Assembly (NCBI GenBank): GCA_025927655.1
Contig: JAICKY010000002.1
Coordinates: forward strand, 1 to 52,336
Length of the DNA: 52,336 nt
Origin: Candidatus Saccharimonadota bacterium
Lineage (GTDB): Bacteria > Patescibacteriota > Saccharimonadia > Saccharimonadales > UBA4665
Reading direction: 5' to 3'
Shown piece by piece: positions 5,050 to 29,490 of this stretch. A program made the translations under genes and the position numbers. Each line of letters opens with the position of its first letter. Positions within the stretch are counted from its first letter, which is position 1. A model generated the notes under the pieces. It saw nothing but the letters and a program-made list of their open reading frames with translations, made no database searches and had not been told where the DNA came from.

Positions 5050-5635
5050 ACAATTTCCTCTCGTTAGTAAGTGCCCGGGCGATGCCAGCGAGTTCATGCG
5101 CGAAGGCATCATCCAATGGCTTGTGCCTGTAAATCAACCGGTACCACATGGCGGCAGCCAAAAGCTCAGCAATTGCCGACGCAGGAACGGCGTACGTATG
5201 CCCGTGTTTACGAGCGTCTTCGACGACCACTTGCTCCAATATCGTTCGGCGTTGGTTAATAAGCGCCTGGATATCGAGGGTGAGCGCAGGGTCATCACTA
5301 GCCTGCACAAGCAGGATAGTCAAAAGGTCGCCGGTCCGCGTACGTGCAAGCTCGAAGAGGCGTTTCAGGTAGTCCTCGATGCTGCCGGCATTTGTAGCCA
5401 ATGCGGCTTGTTGGACCTGCGTGGTCACTACTTCCATGAATAAGCGCTCTTTTGTGGGCCAGCGGCGATAGATAGTCTGCCGACCCACCCGCGCGTGCTT
5501 GGCGATAGCTTTTATGGTCGTCTCTGCGTAGCCGTTGGCACGCGACAGCTCAAATGCTGCATCCAATATTCGTTGGTGCGCCTTGGCGTCGCGCGGCCGG
5601 CCGCGTCGTGTCCGGGCAGGGTCGTAAGTACTCAC
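5039..5635 (-). CDS. TetR/AcrR family transcriptional regulator
   Basis: A 198-residue protein from GTG at 5635. An N-terminal arm rich in Arg (ARTRRGRPRD) is followed by the TetR helix-turn-helix, with recognition-helix region HARVGRQTIYRRWPTKERLF at about residues 40-59. The C-terminal two thirds is all-helical, the ligand-binding and dimer domain. An upstream GTG at 5662 is also in frame. I chose 5635 because a TATGAT box (5642-5647) ends only 6 nt before it, implying a leaderless mRNA. It probably regulates itself and the adjoining broken NTF2-like gene. Confidence 0.85.
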   Translation of the reverse strand: MSTYDPARTRRGRPRDAKAHQRILDAAFELSRANGYAETTIKAIAKHARVGRQTIYRRWPTKERLFMEVVTTQVQQAALATNAGSIEDYLKRLFELARTRTGDLLTILLVQASDDPALTLDIQALINQRRTILEQVVVEDARKHGHTYAVPASAIAELLAAAMWYRLIYRHKPLDDAFAHELAGIARALTNERKLYGH

Positions 5636-15921: not shown

Positions 15922-16327
15922 GGGGCTGAATTTTAAGCTCGACGTTGGTACGTTACGGTTAGATCAGCAGGTCGCTTGTCAGCGATATAGGCACAATTTT
16001 TAGATGCAAAAACTACATCTAGCACTGAGAAGATGCTTGCCCTGAAGAACTCTTTGAAGAACTTCAAGGCGGCTTTCGCTCCAGTTGCACCAGCTCTCGT
16101 TTAATTACCCGAGCAACGCCTTCGCGACTTCAGATAGCGAATACGCGTTTTATATTTCTGAACGCTCGGACGGAACTATCCAGTCCGACCGCTAAGACCA
16201 GGATTGCTCGCATGCGATGTTTGTCGGTTTCGATACGCATGCGCTAAGACAGCAAAACCAACTAAGCCTGTAGACGACTAACTATAAACTCCGACGGACC
16301 CGGGGGCAGTACCCGGCAGCTCCACCA
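15922..16327 (+). ncRNA. ssrA: Transfer-messenger RNA (tmRNA)
   Basis: The 5' end GGGGCTGAATTTTAAGCTCGAC pairs with the 3' end CAGCTCC-ACCA as in E. coli tmRNA (shown here in parts), with CCA encoded. It rescues stalled ribosomes by acting first as tRNA-Ala and then as mRNA. The tag frame appears to resume at GCA 16006-16008 (after TTTTAGAT) and ends at TAA 16102-16104. It encodes 32 residues starting AKTTSSTEKM and ending APVAPALV. That is long, and ends in ALV rather than the common LAA. The T-loop reads GGCAGTA. A terminator follows at 16340. The resume codon is inferred from context. Confidence 0.93.
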
Positions 16328-17225: not shown

Positions 17226-17855
17226 TTATCTTTGTTCGAGACACTGGAGGGTTTGGTGGCGGTGGGATAGCTCGTAAAACGGGTTGCCGCCGATGCAATG
17301 TACGCTGTCGTGGCCGAAGACGATCACCAGTATGGCGAAGCCTATAACGGCGACACTAATGGCGGGCCAGCTCTGCCGGGACGCGGTCATTATTGTCCAG
17401 ATGCCTTTCCCTGTTTCCCGGCGTTGAGATTGTAGCCAGCACAGCAGTGCGGCCAGATTCAGTAGTATAGCGATGGCTGGGAATACAACCAGCCAGGCGA
17501 ACAACACGTTCGTGTGCCAGATGACTGATTTCTCTAAACGCTTGCCGAATAAACTGTCTATGATAATAAACAGGAAAAATGGCGTGACCAACCATACGCC
17601 GGTCATGGCATTTTGTTTTAGGTAGTAGGGGGTGCCTTTCATAGTTTCTCCTGTGTAAGTTAGCTGTTGCTTGGTAACGCTGACAGGAAAATCCAGGGCG
17701 GTACGTATCCAGGTGGCTGTCTTGTTTCGCGCGGGGTCATCCAGCATATCCGCCAAAATCTGTAGCATCTGCTTGCTATATTCTTTGCGGTATCCAGCAG
17801 GGTATAGTGCTAGCAGCCTACTGTACCGTGGAAATCGATGGTTTAACTTGTCCAT
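17226..17855 (-). CDS. Membrane protein with permease-prefix-like N-terminus, PadR partner
   Basis: 209 residues. The N-terminal ~70 residues (RYSRLLALYPAGYRKEYSKQ, MLQILADMLDD) form a soluble helical domain like those in front of some PadR-linked membrane proteins. Three or four TM helices follow (about 85-105, 115-140, 165-185). It overlaps the PadR gene by 13 bp and probably forms an operon with it. A truncated paralogue of the N-terminal domain lies at 45313-45594. The 200 bp downstream (17019-17225) holds nothing recognisable. Confidence 0.7.
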   Translation of the reverse strand: MDKLNHRFPRYSRLLALYPAGYRKEYSKQMLQILADMLDDPARNKTATWIRTALDFPVSVTKQQLTYTGETMKGTPYYLKQNAMTGVWLVTPFFLFIIIDSLFGKRLEKSVIWHTNVLFAWLVVFPAIAILLNLAALLCWLQSQRRETGKGIWTIMTASRQSWPAISVAVIGFAILVIVFGHDSVHCIGGNPFYELSHRHQTLQCLEQR

Positions 17856-18199
17856 CGCAAAGTTCCTATGGTATTGCTTATCAGCCGGCGCTCCTGTGCG
17901 AGGCGGACGGTATTTTCGAAGTACTCCAGCTCGGCATTGAGGCGGTTCAGGCCTTTGCGGGTCAATCGGTAATAGCGGCGGCGCTCGTTGTCGCTTTCGA
18001 ACGGCATTTCCTCTATAAAATTATCTTCTCTCAGTTGCTTTATCGTGCCGTACAGCGCGCCCGGACCGAGTTGTATCTTGCCCTGGCTGTCATGTTCTAT
18101 TTGTTGCATTAGTTCGTAGCCGTGACGTGGCTTAAGGCTCAGCGCAAATAAAATGCTGAAAGTTACTTGGGGTAAGAGGCCGGATGAACGCTTAGTCAT
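17843..18199 (-). CDS. PadR-family transcriptional regulator
   Basis: 118 residues. The winged-helix PadR domain is clear: QVTFSILFALSLKPRHGYEL, then the signature GALYGTIKQLREDNFIEE and the wing RRRYYRLTRKGLNRL. A short C-terminal helix would mediate dimerisation. The ATG at 18199 follows TATAAT by 6 nt, so the transcript is probably leaderless. The promoter contains an ATATC-N7-GATAT repeat, a plausible PadR operator. It likely represses itself and the overlapping membrane-protein gene. Confidence 0.9.
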   Translation of the reverse strand: MTKRSSGLLPQVTFSILFALSLKPRHGYELMQQIEHDSQGKIQLGPGALYGTIKQLREDNFIEEMPFESDNERRRYYRLTRKGLNRLNAELEYFENTVRLAQERRLISNTIGTLRWTS

Positions 18200-25274: not shown

Positions 25275-26894
25275 ATGAATCTTCGCGCCGTACTAAATCT
25301 GTACAACCCTACGTTTGCGGCAAATGTCATTAGCGAACTCAGACGCCAGCGCTATTCGGGCTGGCGTCTGTTTTACTGGCTGTGGCACTCCCGCATGTTT
25401 CAAAGTGAGGGCGAGCTGCCGGAAGTGCAGCGTTCTTTGGCGGTGCTACTCGGATTAGCTATGCTGGGGCAGCTTGGTTTGGGTGTGGGTTTTCTGGTGG
25501 AATGGGCGCGCTACGGGACTGCCGGTGCGTGGGAGTTTGGCGTGGCGCTGGTGCTTTCGTACCCGCTGGTGTGGTCGCATCTTGTGGTGTTCCTGGCTTG
25601 GATATGGAATTTGTCATGGGCTGTTTCGCACCCCAAAAAGGCTGCTCGGGCGGCGGTGTGTACGGTACTGGAATGGCAAGTGCGGCAGCTGCGGGTTCGG
25701 CACCACTTCAAAGTTGTAGCGGTGGTAGGGTCGGTGGGCAAAACCAGTACTAAACTGGCGATTGCAGATTTGTTAGGCCAAAGCTTGCGCGTGCGGTATC
25801 AGGCGGGCAATTATAACGACCGTGTCACCGTTCCGCTGGTATTTTTTGGCCTGAACGAGCCAAGCCTGTACAACGTGTTTGCGTGGTGGAAGGCGTTTGG
25901 CGTAACTCAGTCAGAAATAGCGCTGCCCTATCCATATGACGTCGTGGTGGTAGAACTCGGTACCGACGGCCCCGGCCAGCTGGCAGACTTTGCATACATC
26001 AAGCCCGATATTACGGTTGTTACGGCCGTGTCTCCAGAGCACATGGAATATTTTGGTACGCTCGATGCGGTTGCCGCCGAAGAGCTCAGCGTGTTTGGTT
26101 ATAGCAAGCGAGTATTAGTGAATGCCGATGATATTGCCGGTGGCTATCTGGCCGGCATGGATTTTTCCGAATACAGCCTGGTGAGCGAGCAAGCTACATA
26201 CGGTGCCACTGCCAAGCCTGATGGCCTGAAAGGCCAGGCGCTTGCGGTGCGCCTGCCAAAGAGCGAATTTACGGCTAACATACAGTATCTGGGCGACCAG
26301 GGTGCTAAGATCGCGCTGGCAGCTGCCGGTGTCGCCGATATGCTCAACGTAAAAAAGGGTGCCATTGCAGCGGGCTTGCCAAAGCTGGCCCCATTTGCCG
26401 GTCGTATGCAGGTGCTGCCGGGCGTAAAGGGCAGTACGCTGATAGACGACACGTATAACGCCAGCCCTATTGCCTGCAAGGCAGCACTGGATGCACTCTA
26501 TGCCGCCAAGGCCAAGCAACGTATAGCCATTCTGGGCAGTATGAACGAACTGGGCGATTACAGCCATGAAGCACACGACGAAGTAGGCATGTACTGTGAT
26601 CCGAAGAAATTGGACTTGGTCGTAACCATCGGTCATGATGCCAAACAGTGGCTTGCCCCAGCAGCTCGTGAACGCGGTTGCACCGTGCAAACATTCATGA
26701 GCCCGTACGACGCTGGCGCTTACCTATCCGGCAAACTGCAAAAGGGTGCCGTGGTACTGGCCAAAGGCTCCCAGAATGGTGTGTTCGCCGAGGAGACGCT
26801 CAAACCGCTATTGGCCGACCCTACCGATGCAGCCAAACTCGTTCGCCAAAGCTCATACTGGATGACGCGAAAGTCCAAACAATTTGACCGCTAA
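25275..26894 (+). CDS. MurF-like Mur ligase with N-terminal membrane segments
   Basis: 539 residues. Residues 1-125 contain two or three TM helices not found in standard MurF. The catalytic part follows: ATP-binding GSVGKTSTK, the central-domain AGNYNDRVTVPL, VVELGTDGPGQL and AVSPEHMEYFG, then the C-terminal domain with LIDDTYNASP, ILGSMNELGDYSHEAHDEV and AKGSQNGVFAEE. These are MurF hallmarks (addition of D-Ala-D-Ala to the UDP-MurNAc peptide). The membrane anchor suggests the reaction is held at the membrane. It may act on another precursor. Confidence 0.88.
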   Translation: MNLRAVLNLYNPTFAANVISELRRQRYSGWRLFYWLWHSRMFQSEGELPEVQRSLAVLLGLAMLGQLGLGVGFLVEWARYGTAGAWEFGVALVLSYPLVWSHLVVFLAWIWNLSWAVSHPKKAARAAVCTVLEWQVRQLRVRHHFKVVAVVGSVGKTSTKLAIADLLGQSLRVRYQAGNYNDRVTVPLVFFGLNEPSLYNVFAWWKAFGVTQSEIALPYPYDVVVVELGTDGPGQLADFAYIKPDITVVTAVSPEHMEYFGTLDAVAAEELSVFGYSKRVLVNADDIAGGYLAGMDFSEYSLVSEQATYGATAKPDGLKGQALAVRLPKSEFTANIQYLGDQGAKIALAAAGVADMLNVKKGAIAAGLPKLAPFAGRMQVLPGVKGSTLIDDTYNASPIACKAALDALYAAKAKQRIAILGSMNELGDYSHEAHDEVGMYCDPKKLDLVVTIGHDAKQWLAPAARERGCTVQTFMSPYDAGAYLSGKLQKGAVVLAKGSQNGVFAEETLKPLLADPTDAAKLVRQSSYWMTRKSKQFDR

Positions 26895-26912
26895 CCTAAC
26901 AGATCAGAATTG

Positions 26913-26921
26913 TGGTATAAT
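26913..26921 (+). promoter_or_regulatory. Extended -10 promoter before the leuS leader
   Basis: TGGTATAAT (26913-26921): perfect -10 with TGn extension, no clear -35. The predicted start falls 2-3 nt before the leader-peptide ATG at 26931. A second TATAAT at 26997-27002, after the terminator, could start a leader-independent transcript. Confidence 0.65.
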
Positions 26922-26930
26922 GAACTAAAT

Positions 26931-26975
26931 ATGAGTAAGCAATCTCTCCAGCTCGCACTTCTCCTCGCCCTGTAG
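26931..26975 (+). CDS. Leu-rich leader peptide of leuS (candidate attenuator)
   Basis: A 14-residue frame, MSKQSLQLALLLAL, then TAG. Six of 14 codons are Leu (four CTC, one CTT, one CTG), three of them close together before a terminator-like element. It sits between a promoter and leuS, the natural place for ribosome-mediated attenuation by charged tRNA-Leu. The CTCCTC codons (26961-26966) are also complementary to the GAGGAG ribosome binding site of leuS (27029-27034). Regulatory function is inferred. Confidence 0.55.
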   Translation: MSKQSLQLALLLAL

Positions 26976-26986
26976 GGCAATTTTTT
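26967..26986 (+). terminator. Short terminator overlapping the end of the leader peptide
   Basis: GCCC (26967-26970), loop TGTA, GGGC (26975-26978), AA, then six T (26981-26986). The stem is only 4 bp but GC-only, and it covers the last leader codons and the stop. Confidence 0.6.
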
Positions 26987-27042
26987 CTACATCTAGTATA
27001 ATTTTTATCAAACGACAGTAATCTACCAGAGGAGTTTTACCC

Positions 27043-29490
27043 GTGAAACGATATAATCCCAAAGAAATTGAACCGCGATGGCAGCAGCAGTGGGCTGACA
27101 GCAAAATCTACGAAGCCAGCGAAGACCCGGCGAAACCAAAACGCTACATTTTGGAATATTTCCCATACCCTAGCGGCGCTGCGATGCATGTTGGGCATGT
27201 CCGCAACTACACCATTGGCGACGTAGTAGCTCGCCATGCCCGCATGCAGGGCATGAACGTGTTGCACCCAATGGGATGGGATGCGTTTGGACTGCCAGCT
27301 GAAAACTACGCTATCAAGACAGGCATCAGCCCCCAGCAAGCCATTGCCGAAAACACCGGCAAATTTAAACAGCAGTTGACGCGCATGGGGTTCAGTTACG
27401 ACTGGTCACGCGAATTTGCCAGCTCTGACCCTGAGTATTACCGTTGGACTCAGTGGTTCTTCCTGCTGCTGCACAAGCGTGGCTTGGCGTACCGACAGGA
27501 AAGCTTGCAGTGGTGGTGCCCGGTGGATAAGACCGTGCTGGCCAACGAACAGGTTGAGGCTGGCCGCTGCTGGCGCTGTGGCAGCGAAGTCGAGAAAAAG
27601 GCGCTCAAACAGTGGTTTTTCAAGATTACCGACTATGCCGATCGTCTGGCAAAAGATCTGGATGATGTTGACTGGAGCGAATCTATCAAAAGCATGCAGC
27701 GCAACTGGATCGGCCGGTCTGAAGGTGCCGAAGTTGAATTCCCGGTTGAAGGTTCCAATGAAAAGCTAAGGGTATTTACTACAGCTCACGATACCATTTT
27801 TGGTGTGACCTTTATGGTACTTGCACCAGAGCATCCGTTGCTCCATACCATTGTACCGGAGACTCATCGTCAACAAGTTGAAAATTATCAACAGAAGTCC
27901 CGTAATAAATCGGACATTGAACGCCAAGAGACGAATCGTGAGAAAACAGGGGTATTTACCGGTGCATATGCGATCAATCCGCTAGATGGCGCTAAAATTC
28001 CTATTTGGACAGCAGACTATGTGCTGGCGGGCTATGGTACTGGAGCTATTATGGCCGTGCCCGGGGAAGATGAGCGTGATTATGAATTTGCCAAAAAATT
28101 TGATCTGCCTGTTATTTTTACGACCGAACAGCAGGAATTCGTAGACTACCAGAGCGAACTAAAGCCAAACCGCAAAACATATAAACTAGCGAATTCAGGT
28201 GAATTTGACGGGTTAGATTTCGAAACCGGCCGGCAAAAAATACTAGAGAAGCTGGAAGGGGCAGGCTCTGGTAAAAGTGTCATTAATTACCGCATCCGCG
28301 ACTGGCTGATCAGCCGCCAGCGCTACTGGGGCGCGCCAATCCCGATGATTCACTGCCTGAAGGACGGCATTGTGCCAGTCCCCGAAGATCAGCTGCCGGT
28401 GGTGTTGCCTGAACTAAAGAGTTTTGAACCAAGTGGTGATGGTCGCAGTCCACTGGCCAACGTGCCGGAATTTGTGAATACCGCCTGCCCGCAGTGTGGT
28501 GGGCCGGCCGAGCGCGAAACGGACACTATGGACGGCTTTGCCTGTTCCAGTTGGTACTTCCTGCGGTTTGCCGACCCGCATAACACCGAACAACCGTTTG
28601 ACGCTGACAAGGTTAAGTTCTGGTCCCCGGTAGATGACTATATCGGTGGTGCCGAACACGCCGTAATGCACCTGTTGTATGCTCGTATGTGGACAAAGGT
28701 AATGCAGGACGAAGGCCTGATTGACTTCGGTGAGCCGTTTAAATCACTGCGCAACCAGGGCATGATCTTAGCACCAGACGGCCAAAAGATGAGCAAGAGC
28801 AAGGGCAACACCATCCAGCCGGACGAGCTGATCGAACAGGGCTACGGCGCCGACAGCATTCGTATTATGGAATTGTTTATAGGCCCGTGGAACCAGAGTG
28901 CGGCATGGAGTGTGGAAGGCATGGGTGGCAGTTACCGGTTCTTGCAGCGTATCTGGAATCTGGTGCAGGAACATATCGCAGCGGGGGCCGCTACCGGTGA
29001 AAGCGAAGCGTTGCAACGCGCTATTCATCGCACGGTCAAGAAAGTAAGTGACGATCTGGCTGCTATGGGCTTTAACACGGCAATCGCCGCGCTGATGGAA
29101 CTGACAAACGATCTGTACAAACTAAAAACTGAAGTTCCCATGGGCGTACCGGTATGGAAAGACGTATTGTCGAAGACCGTGCAGTTGCTGGCACCGTTTG
29201 CTCCGCATATTAGCGAGGAGCTATGGAACCAGCTGGCACACGAGGGCTCGGTACACACCAGTGAGTGGCCAAGCTATGATGAATCCTACCTAGTAGAAGA
29301 CAGCGTAACCATTGCTGTCCAGGTAAACGGCAAACTGCGTGGAACTATCACTGCGCCGATGGATAGCGACGAGGTTGCGGTTACGGAACTTGCAAAGGCA
29401 GATGAAAAGATTGCTGCCAACCTAGCCGGCAAGCAAATCGTAAAAACCATCTATGTGCCCAACAAGCTGCTGAGCTTTGTCGTGAAATAG
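27043..29490 (+). CDS. leuS: Leucyl-tRNA synthetase
   Basis: 815 residues, standard bacterial length, starting at GTG with GAGGAG (27029-27034) 8 nt upstream. It charges tRNA-Leu. The class I signatures are PYPSGAAMHVGHVRNYTIGD (HIGH motif) and GQKMSKSKGN (KMSKS). The zinc-ribbon-like CPVDKTVLANEQV with CWRCG, and the CP1 editing domain (TTAHDTIFGVTFMVLAPEHP, GAIMAVPGEDERD) are present, as is a Leu-specific second zinc motif (TACPQCGGPAERETDTMDGF). A Leu-rich leader peptide and terminator upstream suggest control by Leu-tRNA supply. Confidence 0.97.
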   Translation: MKRYNPKEIEPRWQQQWADSKIYEASEDPAKPKRYILEYFPYPSGAAMHVGHVRNYTIGDVVARHARMQGMNVLHPMGWDAFGLPAENYAIKTGISPQQAIAENTGKFKQQLTRMGFSYDWSREFASSDPEYYRWTQWFFLLLHKRGLAYRQESLQWWCPVDKTVLANEQVEAGRCWRCGSEVEKKALKQWFFKITDYADRLAKDLDDVDWSESIKSMQRNWIGRSEGAEVEFPVEGSNEKLRVFTTAHDTIFGVTFMVLAPEHPLLHTIVPETHRQQVENYQQKSRNKSDIERQETNREKTGVFTGAYAINPLDGAKIPIWTADYVLAGYGTGAIMAVPGEDERDYEFAKKFDLPVIFTTEQQEFVDYQSELKPNRKTYKLANSGEFDGLDFETGRQKILEKLEGAGSGKSVINYRIRDWLISRQRYWGAPIPMIHCLKDGIVPVPEDQLPVVLPELKSFEPSGDGRSPLANVPEFVNTACPQCGGPAERETDTMDGFACSSWYFLRFADPHNTEQPFDADKVKFWSPVDDYIGGAEHAVMHLLYARMWTKVMQDEGLIDFGEPFKSLRNQGMILAPDGQKMSKSKGNTIQPDELIEQGYGADSIRIMELFIGPWNQSAAWSVEGMGGSYRFLQRIWNLVQEHIAAGAATGESEALQRAIHRTVKKVSDDLAAMGFNTAIAALMELTNDLYKLKTEVPMGVPVWKDVLSKTVQLLAPFAPHISEELWNQLAHEGSVHTSEWPSYDESYLVEDSVTIAVQVNGKLRGTITAPMDSDEVAVTELAKADEKIAANLAGKQIVKTIYVPNKLLSFVVK

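Follow-up and report, generated by a model that had tools for sequence, protein, structure and literature searches.

The leucyl-tRNA synthetase gene leuS of Candidatus Saccharimonadota bacterium is preceded by a very short leader gene that we read, with a probability of roughly 0.7, as a leader-peptide attenuator, coupling leuS expression to the supply of charged tRNA-Leu and chiefly to the GAG isoacceptor, which reads CTC and CTT. The gene lies in a stretch of 52,336 nt that was analysed as a whole and is called the window here, and its leader recurs as 20 diverged elements in 18 Saccharibacteria genomes from four families.

A sequence-only reading of the window had described a promoter, a 14-codon frame with six Leu codons, a GC stem and a run of six T upstream of leuS, and all of these read as described. 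The predicted −10 region of the first promoter, P1, is TGGTATAAT (26913–26921, forward strand as for all features of the locus, with TATAAT at 26916–26921), and 9 nt separate this TATAAT from the start codon of the leader ORF at 26931. The ORF (26931–26975) encodes MSKQSLQLALLLAL in 14 codons, six of them for Leu (ATG AGT AAG CAA TCT CTC CAG CTC GCA CTT CTC CTC GCC CTG, then TAG at 26973–26975), in a frame that is conserved in the 20 elements, and it would be near-leaderless if transcription starts at ∼26928–26931. Two putative control codons, CTC CTC (26961–26966, codons −4 and −3), which are assigned from the positional conservation of Leu, abut a terminator-like hairpin formed by GCCC (26967–26970), TGTA and GGGC (26975–26978), and the TAG stop lies within and at the edge of the loop of this 4-bp hairpin. 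Next come a T6 tract (26981–26986), the presumed termination point, a second −10 hexamer, TATAAT (26997–27002), the presumed basal leuS promoter P2, and a leuS Shine–Dalgarno sequence, GAGGAG (27029–27034), which is predicted to be able to pair with the CTCCTC at 26961–26966. The leuS gene itself (27043–29490) starts with GTG at 27043, 56 nt past the T-run and 67 nt past the leader stop, so the distance of 57 bp given before holds when counted from the T-run and not when counted from the stop codon. By its profile matches (TIGR00396, 1062 bits; Pfam PF13603, PF00133 and PF08264) the product is a clear bacterial leucine–tRNA ligase, and its nearest named relatives are the LeuS proteins of Saccharibacteria MAGs and genomes. 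A search of 26890–27070 against Rfam gave no match at gathering score or at E ≤ 1. Elsewhere in the window, positions 15922–16327 match the tmRNA family of Rfam (RF00023, 59.4 bits), a gene that ARAGORN did not report there.

The evidence from the leuS locus alone is weak, since at least six Leu among the 13 non-start codons have a probability of 9e-4 at the window's own Leu usage, the fold z-score of the hairpin (−0.47) is no better than that of shuffles, and the 4-bp stem, judged weak from the outset, falls below the 5-bp threshold of a simple terminator scan. It is the comparison with relatives that settles whether the element is real. The idea that a random short frame happens to lie beside a weak hairpin would suit a single locus that is unremarkable both in its fold and in the terminator scan, but the 20 copies, the blind scans, the positional Leu codons, the retention of the element throughout one LeuS clade, the cognate enrichment and the frame test, all described below, jointly exclude it, and we give it practically no weight.

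Within the family, leuS was detected in 86 of 93 genomes, and 14 of the 81 leuS upstream regions that we read carry the Leu-leader unit directly 5′ of leuS. The element moves to the operon front where leuS follows alaX or alaX-DUF2000: in genome G065 it heads an alaX-DUF2000-leuS operon, and in G009 it heads alaX and then leuS. A covariance model (R1), searched over 393 genomes of the order, added G095 and G143, each with an element directly before leuS, as well as an element before a DUF2000 gene in G366 and, in G075, a further copy preceding an AlaX-like gene; apart from these last two, the elements (18/20) are linked to leuS. The comparison is built on draft MAG assemblies and the list of 20 was hand-curated from structural and model matches, the order-wide R1 matches weaker than ∼E 1e-3 being mostly chance, with G009 as the exception. 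Across the family, the motif YTNGCCCNNTARGGC has well under one background match per genome besides the true ones. A structural scan that is blind to amino acids, run over both strands of 2.2 Mb of fetched loci, returned 27 matches, most of them the leuS-type Leu leader element, and it showed no such leader at the ileS and valS loci of the carrier genomes. A further model, R2, found the window as its sole match in a phylum-wide sample of 380 genomes, which includes few known carriers, so that absence outside is only weakly tested by it.

The sequence-only reading had predicted a conserved, Leu-rich short frame upstream of leuS in relatives, and the comparison bears this out, with the frame and its Leu codons kept in 20 copies. 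The leaders are 14–18 codons long, and a −10-like hexamer ends 7–11 nt before the start codon in 16 of the 20; G026, G065 and G095 have weaker hexamers 6–7 nt before the start, as judged by eye, and G070 has a clear TATAAT ∼36 nt upstream. In every element the frame is open, and an ATG placed after a −10 hexamer is in frame with the stop at the hairpin 18 times, whereas the two remaining frames give 0 and 4 such cases. Leu makes up 79 of 270 leader codons (29%), versus 9–10% in the genes of the window (p ∼5e-19 to 5e-21), and it occupies codon −3 in 19 and codon −4 in 15 of the 20 elements, with synonymous variation between CTC, CTT, TTG and CTG. Leader residues other than Leu are not conserved, and the Ala codon (GCC) and the CNN codons that follow the Leu run are dictated by the hairpin.

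A GC hairpin is present in all 20 elements (ΔG −4.7 to −9.7 kcal/mol), with the stop codon wholly or partly in its loop in all leuS elements and with a mean of 7.0 T in the 12 nt past it, though the stems are short and several U-tracts are imperfect. Its sequence varies, the arms being GCCC/GGGC, CGCCC/GGGCG, UCCC/GGGA or CUCUGG/CCGGAG. This turnover bears on a different reading of the same letters, in which the palindrome GCCCnnTAGGGC would be a DNA operator for a repressor acting on both P1 and P2 and the frame would be incidental. The core does lie between two promoters and is near-invariant in the main class, yet four copies have UCCC/GGGA and one has CUCUGG/CCGGAG, the open frame is linked to its start, the T-richness is one-sided, and other synthetase genes have different hairpins yet keep their cognate codons. 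We therefore reject the operator, because the sequence of the palindrome turns over among copies, and regard it as highly improbable. Behind the hairpin, a perfect TATAAT stands 21–26 nt past the stop in 10/20 elements, versus ∼2% expected, which is in line with the earlier suggestion that only some of the expression depends on the first promoter; P2 may carry most of it.

The choice of Leu codons is itself informative. CTC and CTT together account for 63 of the 79 leader Leu codons, versus 23% of the Leu codons in the window's genes, and the genome has tRNA-Leu genes with GAG, CAG, TAG, CAA and TAA anticodons. Because CTC and CTT are overrepresented in the leaders and a gene for tRNA-Leu(GAG) is present, the leader probably surveys this isoacceptor; pairing constraints are an alternative reason for the preference for CTC.

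From these features we infer that transcription starts at P1, that the frame is translated, that transcripts can end at the T-run and that the ribosome itself masks the hairpin, and we likewise infer which way leuS is regulated. The steps would be the following. RNA polymerase would start at P1 and make a short RNA with the AUG at or next to its 5′ end, and a ribosome would start at that AUG and trail the polymerase. When Leu-tRNA is plentiful, the ribosome would pass the Leu codons, terminate and leave, upon which the GC hairpin would form and transcription would stop in the T-run. When Leu-tRNA is short, the ribosome would stall once the two CTC codons occupy its P and A sites, and its footprint would cover the 5′ arm of the hairpin, such that no terminator could form while the polymerase crosses the T-run and leuS would be transcribed. 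Longer stalls in leucine shortage would then give more read-through, while P2, where present, would supply basal leuS mRNA. Terminator formation would thus be the default, prevented by a ribosome that occupies the 5′ arm while on the last codons. We favor a default terminator and direct masking for two reasons: the stop of the frame lies within the hairpin, and hardly any of the upstream sequence pairs well with the 5′ arm, the probability of such pairing exceeding 0.5 in only 2/20 elements. No classical antiterminator was found for leuS. The conserved frame and Leu codons bear out the leader-peptide attenuation first proposed for this locus; the antiterminator that classical attenuation requires is not evident.

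The 3′ edge of a bacterial ribosome lies ∼15 nt from the first base of the P site. With CTC CTC in the P and A sites this edge would extend to the stop codon, and the entire 5′ arm would be covered as the polymerase sits at the T-run. A ribosome paused at the stop would have the same masking effect, so that such a switch must be kinetic, and this is the weakest step of the mechanism.

The Leu run could also act on translation. The Leu run would then pair with the leuS Shine–Dalgarno sequence in read-through RNA and block translation, a stalled ribosome would free the Shine–Dalgarno sequence, and the hairpin would serve as a pause or spacer. At the window, 5.75 pairs between the Leu run and the Shine–Dalgarno sequence are expected, and 0 after recoding of the Leu codons to CTG; at least 2.8 are expected in 11/20 elements, a comparable stem occurs in the LEU element before actinobacterial leuA (PMC1262725), and the aspS leaders described below have a covarying structure without a T-tract. 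On the other hand, the pairing is near zero (<0.75) in 7/20 elements and below 2.5 in 9, the leuS gene of G075 has no Shine–Dalgarno sequence, CTC codons are kept in G065 and G366 though no such pairing is predicted there, RNA from P2 would lack the Leu run, and CTCCT pairs with any Shine–Dalgarno sequence by nature. We consider translational attenuation unlikely as the main mode of control. As a universal conserved core, the pairing of CTCCTC with GAGGAG suggested earlier is rejected; at the window it is possible, and because it falls to about zero in seven elements, we regard it as an optional second layer of attenuation, which would act in the same direction.

Further evidence for codon sensing comes from the rest of the same genome, of which we read 823 of 871 kb in stretches. 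A blind scan ignoring both amino acids and gene identity required a −10 hexamer with at least 5/6 matches 4–11 nt before an ATG, 8–25 codons, a GC hairpin near the stop and a T-rich tail, with thresholds set after the first examples. Across the 515 ORFs of at least 200 aa tested in these 823 kb, it picked out four genes only, leuS, metG, proS and aspS, all of them encoding aminoacyl-tRNA synthetases. In each set of leaders one amino acid is enriched, Leu ×3.2 for leuS, Met ×7.2 for metG, Pro ×2.4 for proS and Asn ×4.1 for aspS, and the others are near background, except for Pro in the metG leaders (×2.0), where the hairpin contains CCC. For these counts, the metG, proS and aspS leaders were hand-picked among mechanical mini-ORF matches, and the counts were repeated with the purely mechanical blind rule. 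At these three kinds of loci, too, Rfam gave no match at gathering score.

In this genome, the near-leaderless Met-rich leader MKAAAHTMHLMMPPRA lies ∼125–170 nt upstream of metG (contig C21, L336:1733–3175, reverse strand), and leaders of its kind, such as MTRTYFSVMMRMMPTRA and MSNFVTSNMHMMPPRA, occur in 17/30 family loci (L379–L408), with a Met codon abutting a hairpin, ATGCCC-N4-GGGCAT, that is followed by a T-rich tract. The near-leaderless, Pro-containing leader MKILGFNFVSIIPPRR (contig C24, L338:4960–5010) precedes proS at 5059, with a hairpin of CCGC-CCCG-GCGG, a T6 run and a TATAAT behind, as at leuS; comparable leaders, such as MSIIASIFSRIMPPRR, occur in 11/30 loci (L409–L438), and in these the Pro codons are inside the hairpin, whose fourth pair switches between C-G and G-C. 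An acidic, near-leaderless frame of 20 codons, MVEIEIDEDGVLTYVEADED, was seen 160 nt before a glycyl-tRNA synthetase-like gene, glyS (contig C4, L322, reverse strand, 5246), and was left out as a cognate leader as it has no Gly enrichment.

The aspS leaders differ in build. In this genome the leader starts at 17773 and aspS at 17893 (contig C3, L302, reverse), and 12/21 loci (L357–L378) share the motif N-x-N-[PS]-R-V-G-x before the stop together with a structure of 16 pairs, 11 of which show compensatory change. They are enriched in Asn and not in Asp, and since they mostly lack a T-tract, they are more likely translational than terminating. The enrichment in Asn suggests that AspRS also serves tRNA-Asn, that is, that it is non-discriminating, which fits the finding that no asnS scored above cut-off in the eight genomes tested.

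These leaders also speak to whether something other than tRNA charging is sensed, for instance by a ribosome arrest peptide or by release-factor or trans-translation control at a stop codon held in a hairpin loop. In every leuS element the loop does hold all or part of the stop, but several metG and proS leaders have it after the hairpin, and an arrest peptide is at odds both with the lack of conserved residues besides Leu and with an enriched residue that switches with the synthetase, as codon sensing predicts; we hold such logic to be rather improbable. Under codon sensing, the four leaders would form one system of near-leaderless mini-genes (leuS reading Leu, metG Met, proS Pro and aspS Asn), in which a stalled ribosome masks a minimal terminator without an antiterminator, aspS reads Asn since AspRS also supplies Asn-tRNA, and the AlaX-like and DUF2000 genes belong to the leucine set. 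We give this wider scheme about an even chance.

About 80% of the leuS genes in the family are without the element. A −10-like hexamer stands 4–12 nt before the gene's own start codon in 73 of 91 leuS genes without it, for which leaderless mRNA thus seems to be the rule in Saccharibacteria. On a quick tree of 99 LeuS sequences, the clade of the window's LeuS (SH-aLRT 85) has the element in 7/7 members although their leaders have diverged, so the loss of the frame or its Leu codons in close relatives, which would have spoken against the proposal, is not seen. Other carriers are scattered over this tree, and the pattern takes at least six state changes, a number below that of every one of 500 shuffles. 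Retention in one clade, scattered carriers and −10 hexamers before leuS genes without an element together point to a leader that is an old, added module with repeated losses or gains. The AlaX-like and DUF2000 (PF09391) genes lie in the leuS operon or behind a Leu leader of their own (L141 in G065, L251 in G009, L259 in G075 and L260 in G366), an arrangement that hints at a function linked to quality control of leucyl-tRNA or to the supply of leucine. A separate observation concerns G027 (L097), where a short frame, MQRYYPKDIES, right after a TATAAT and ∼85 nt 5′ of leuS, copies the first residues of LeuRS; it may be a partial duplication or another type of leader.

Control of synthetase genes by tRNA charging is known from T-box riboswitches, which bind tRNA directly and need no translation; the leader has no match to the T-box covariance model. 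The enterobacterial pheST attenuator, cited in the sequence-only reading as precedent, is a synthetase operon with a leader peptide and a terminator, as proposed here, but its leader peptide is leadered with a Shine–Dalgarno sequence and it has an antiterminator in addition. That synthetase genes can have leader peptides is thus known, and the closer precedent is Streptomyces leuS (PMC1262725, PMC8079986): leuS and trpS attenuators were predicted in Streptomyces (PMC1262725), and RNA-seq in S. lividans found a leaderless leuS leader peptide, LeuL2 (MRAVRLLLSEPR), along with leader peptides before trpS, alaS and thrS (PMC8079986). Both kinds of leuS leader are short, Leu-rich frames followed by a terminator-like hairpin, leaderless in S. 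lividans and putatively near-leaderless here. The Streptomyces attenuators have separate antiterminator and terminator hairpins; here there is a single hairpin, in which the frame stops, and no sign of an antiterminator, in a different phylum and with a different set of synthetases (leuS, metG, proS and aspS).

Short ORFs that overlap their terminators, rich in branched-chain codons, are known from the ilvB leaders of Actinobacteria (PMC1262725, PMC11857589, PMC13236596), although ilvB is a biosynthetic operon and antiterminator structures operate in C. glutamicum and M. tuberculosis, the C. glutamicum leader having been dissected into a terminator, an antiterminator and an anti-antiterminator (PMC11857589). 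As in the LEU element of actinobacterial leuA, the Leu run may pair with a downstream Shine–Dalgarno sequence (predicted here in 11/20 elements and near zero in 7), but the LEU element has a pseudoknot and no terminator and precedes a biosynthetic gene (PMC1262725). Mycobacteria have leaderless short ORFs of polycysteine type (Canestrari 2020, as cited in PMC13236596) that likewise read a cognate amino acid and attenuate the downstream gene by it, but on cysteine operons and in what is described there as translation attenuation. In leaderless leader-peptide regulators, cognate codons cluster near the end of the ORF, and this holds for Leu codons −3 and −4. By sequence, the leader has the cognate-rich ORF of the classical trp/pheST-type attenuators; the antiterminator, a defining feature of that class, was tested for and not found, and for this reason we do not file the element there; it would work like leaderless leader-peptide attenuation. 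The sequence-only reading knew of no described case in Patescibacteria, and our literature search for leader peptides or attenuation in Saccharibacteria or Patescibacteria, with incomplete full-text coverage, likewise found no earlier report. Control of this kind is already known; what looks new is its phylum, its minimal architecture and the set of several synthetases that it serves.

Ultrasmall bacteria that depend on a host have to import amino acids, and little is known about how they sense the supply. The conservation of this candidate circuit in part of the Saccharibacteria suggests that they probably sense amino-acid shortage via ribosome stalling on a mini-gene, and a single genome seems to do so for four amino acids. 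At ∼60 nt, comprising a start codon, control codons and a hairpin that holds the stop, this attenuator could hardly be much smaller, and it would demonstrate that masking by a ribosome suffices in place of an antiterminator. The same leaders offer functional leads for the AlaX-like and DUF2000 genes and suggest a non-discriminating AspRS.
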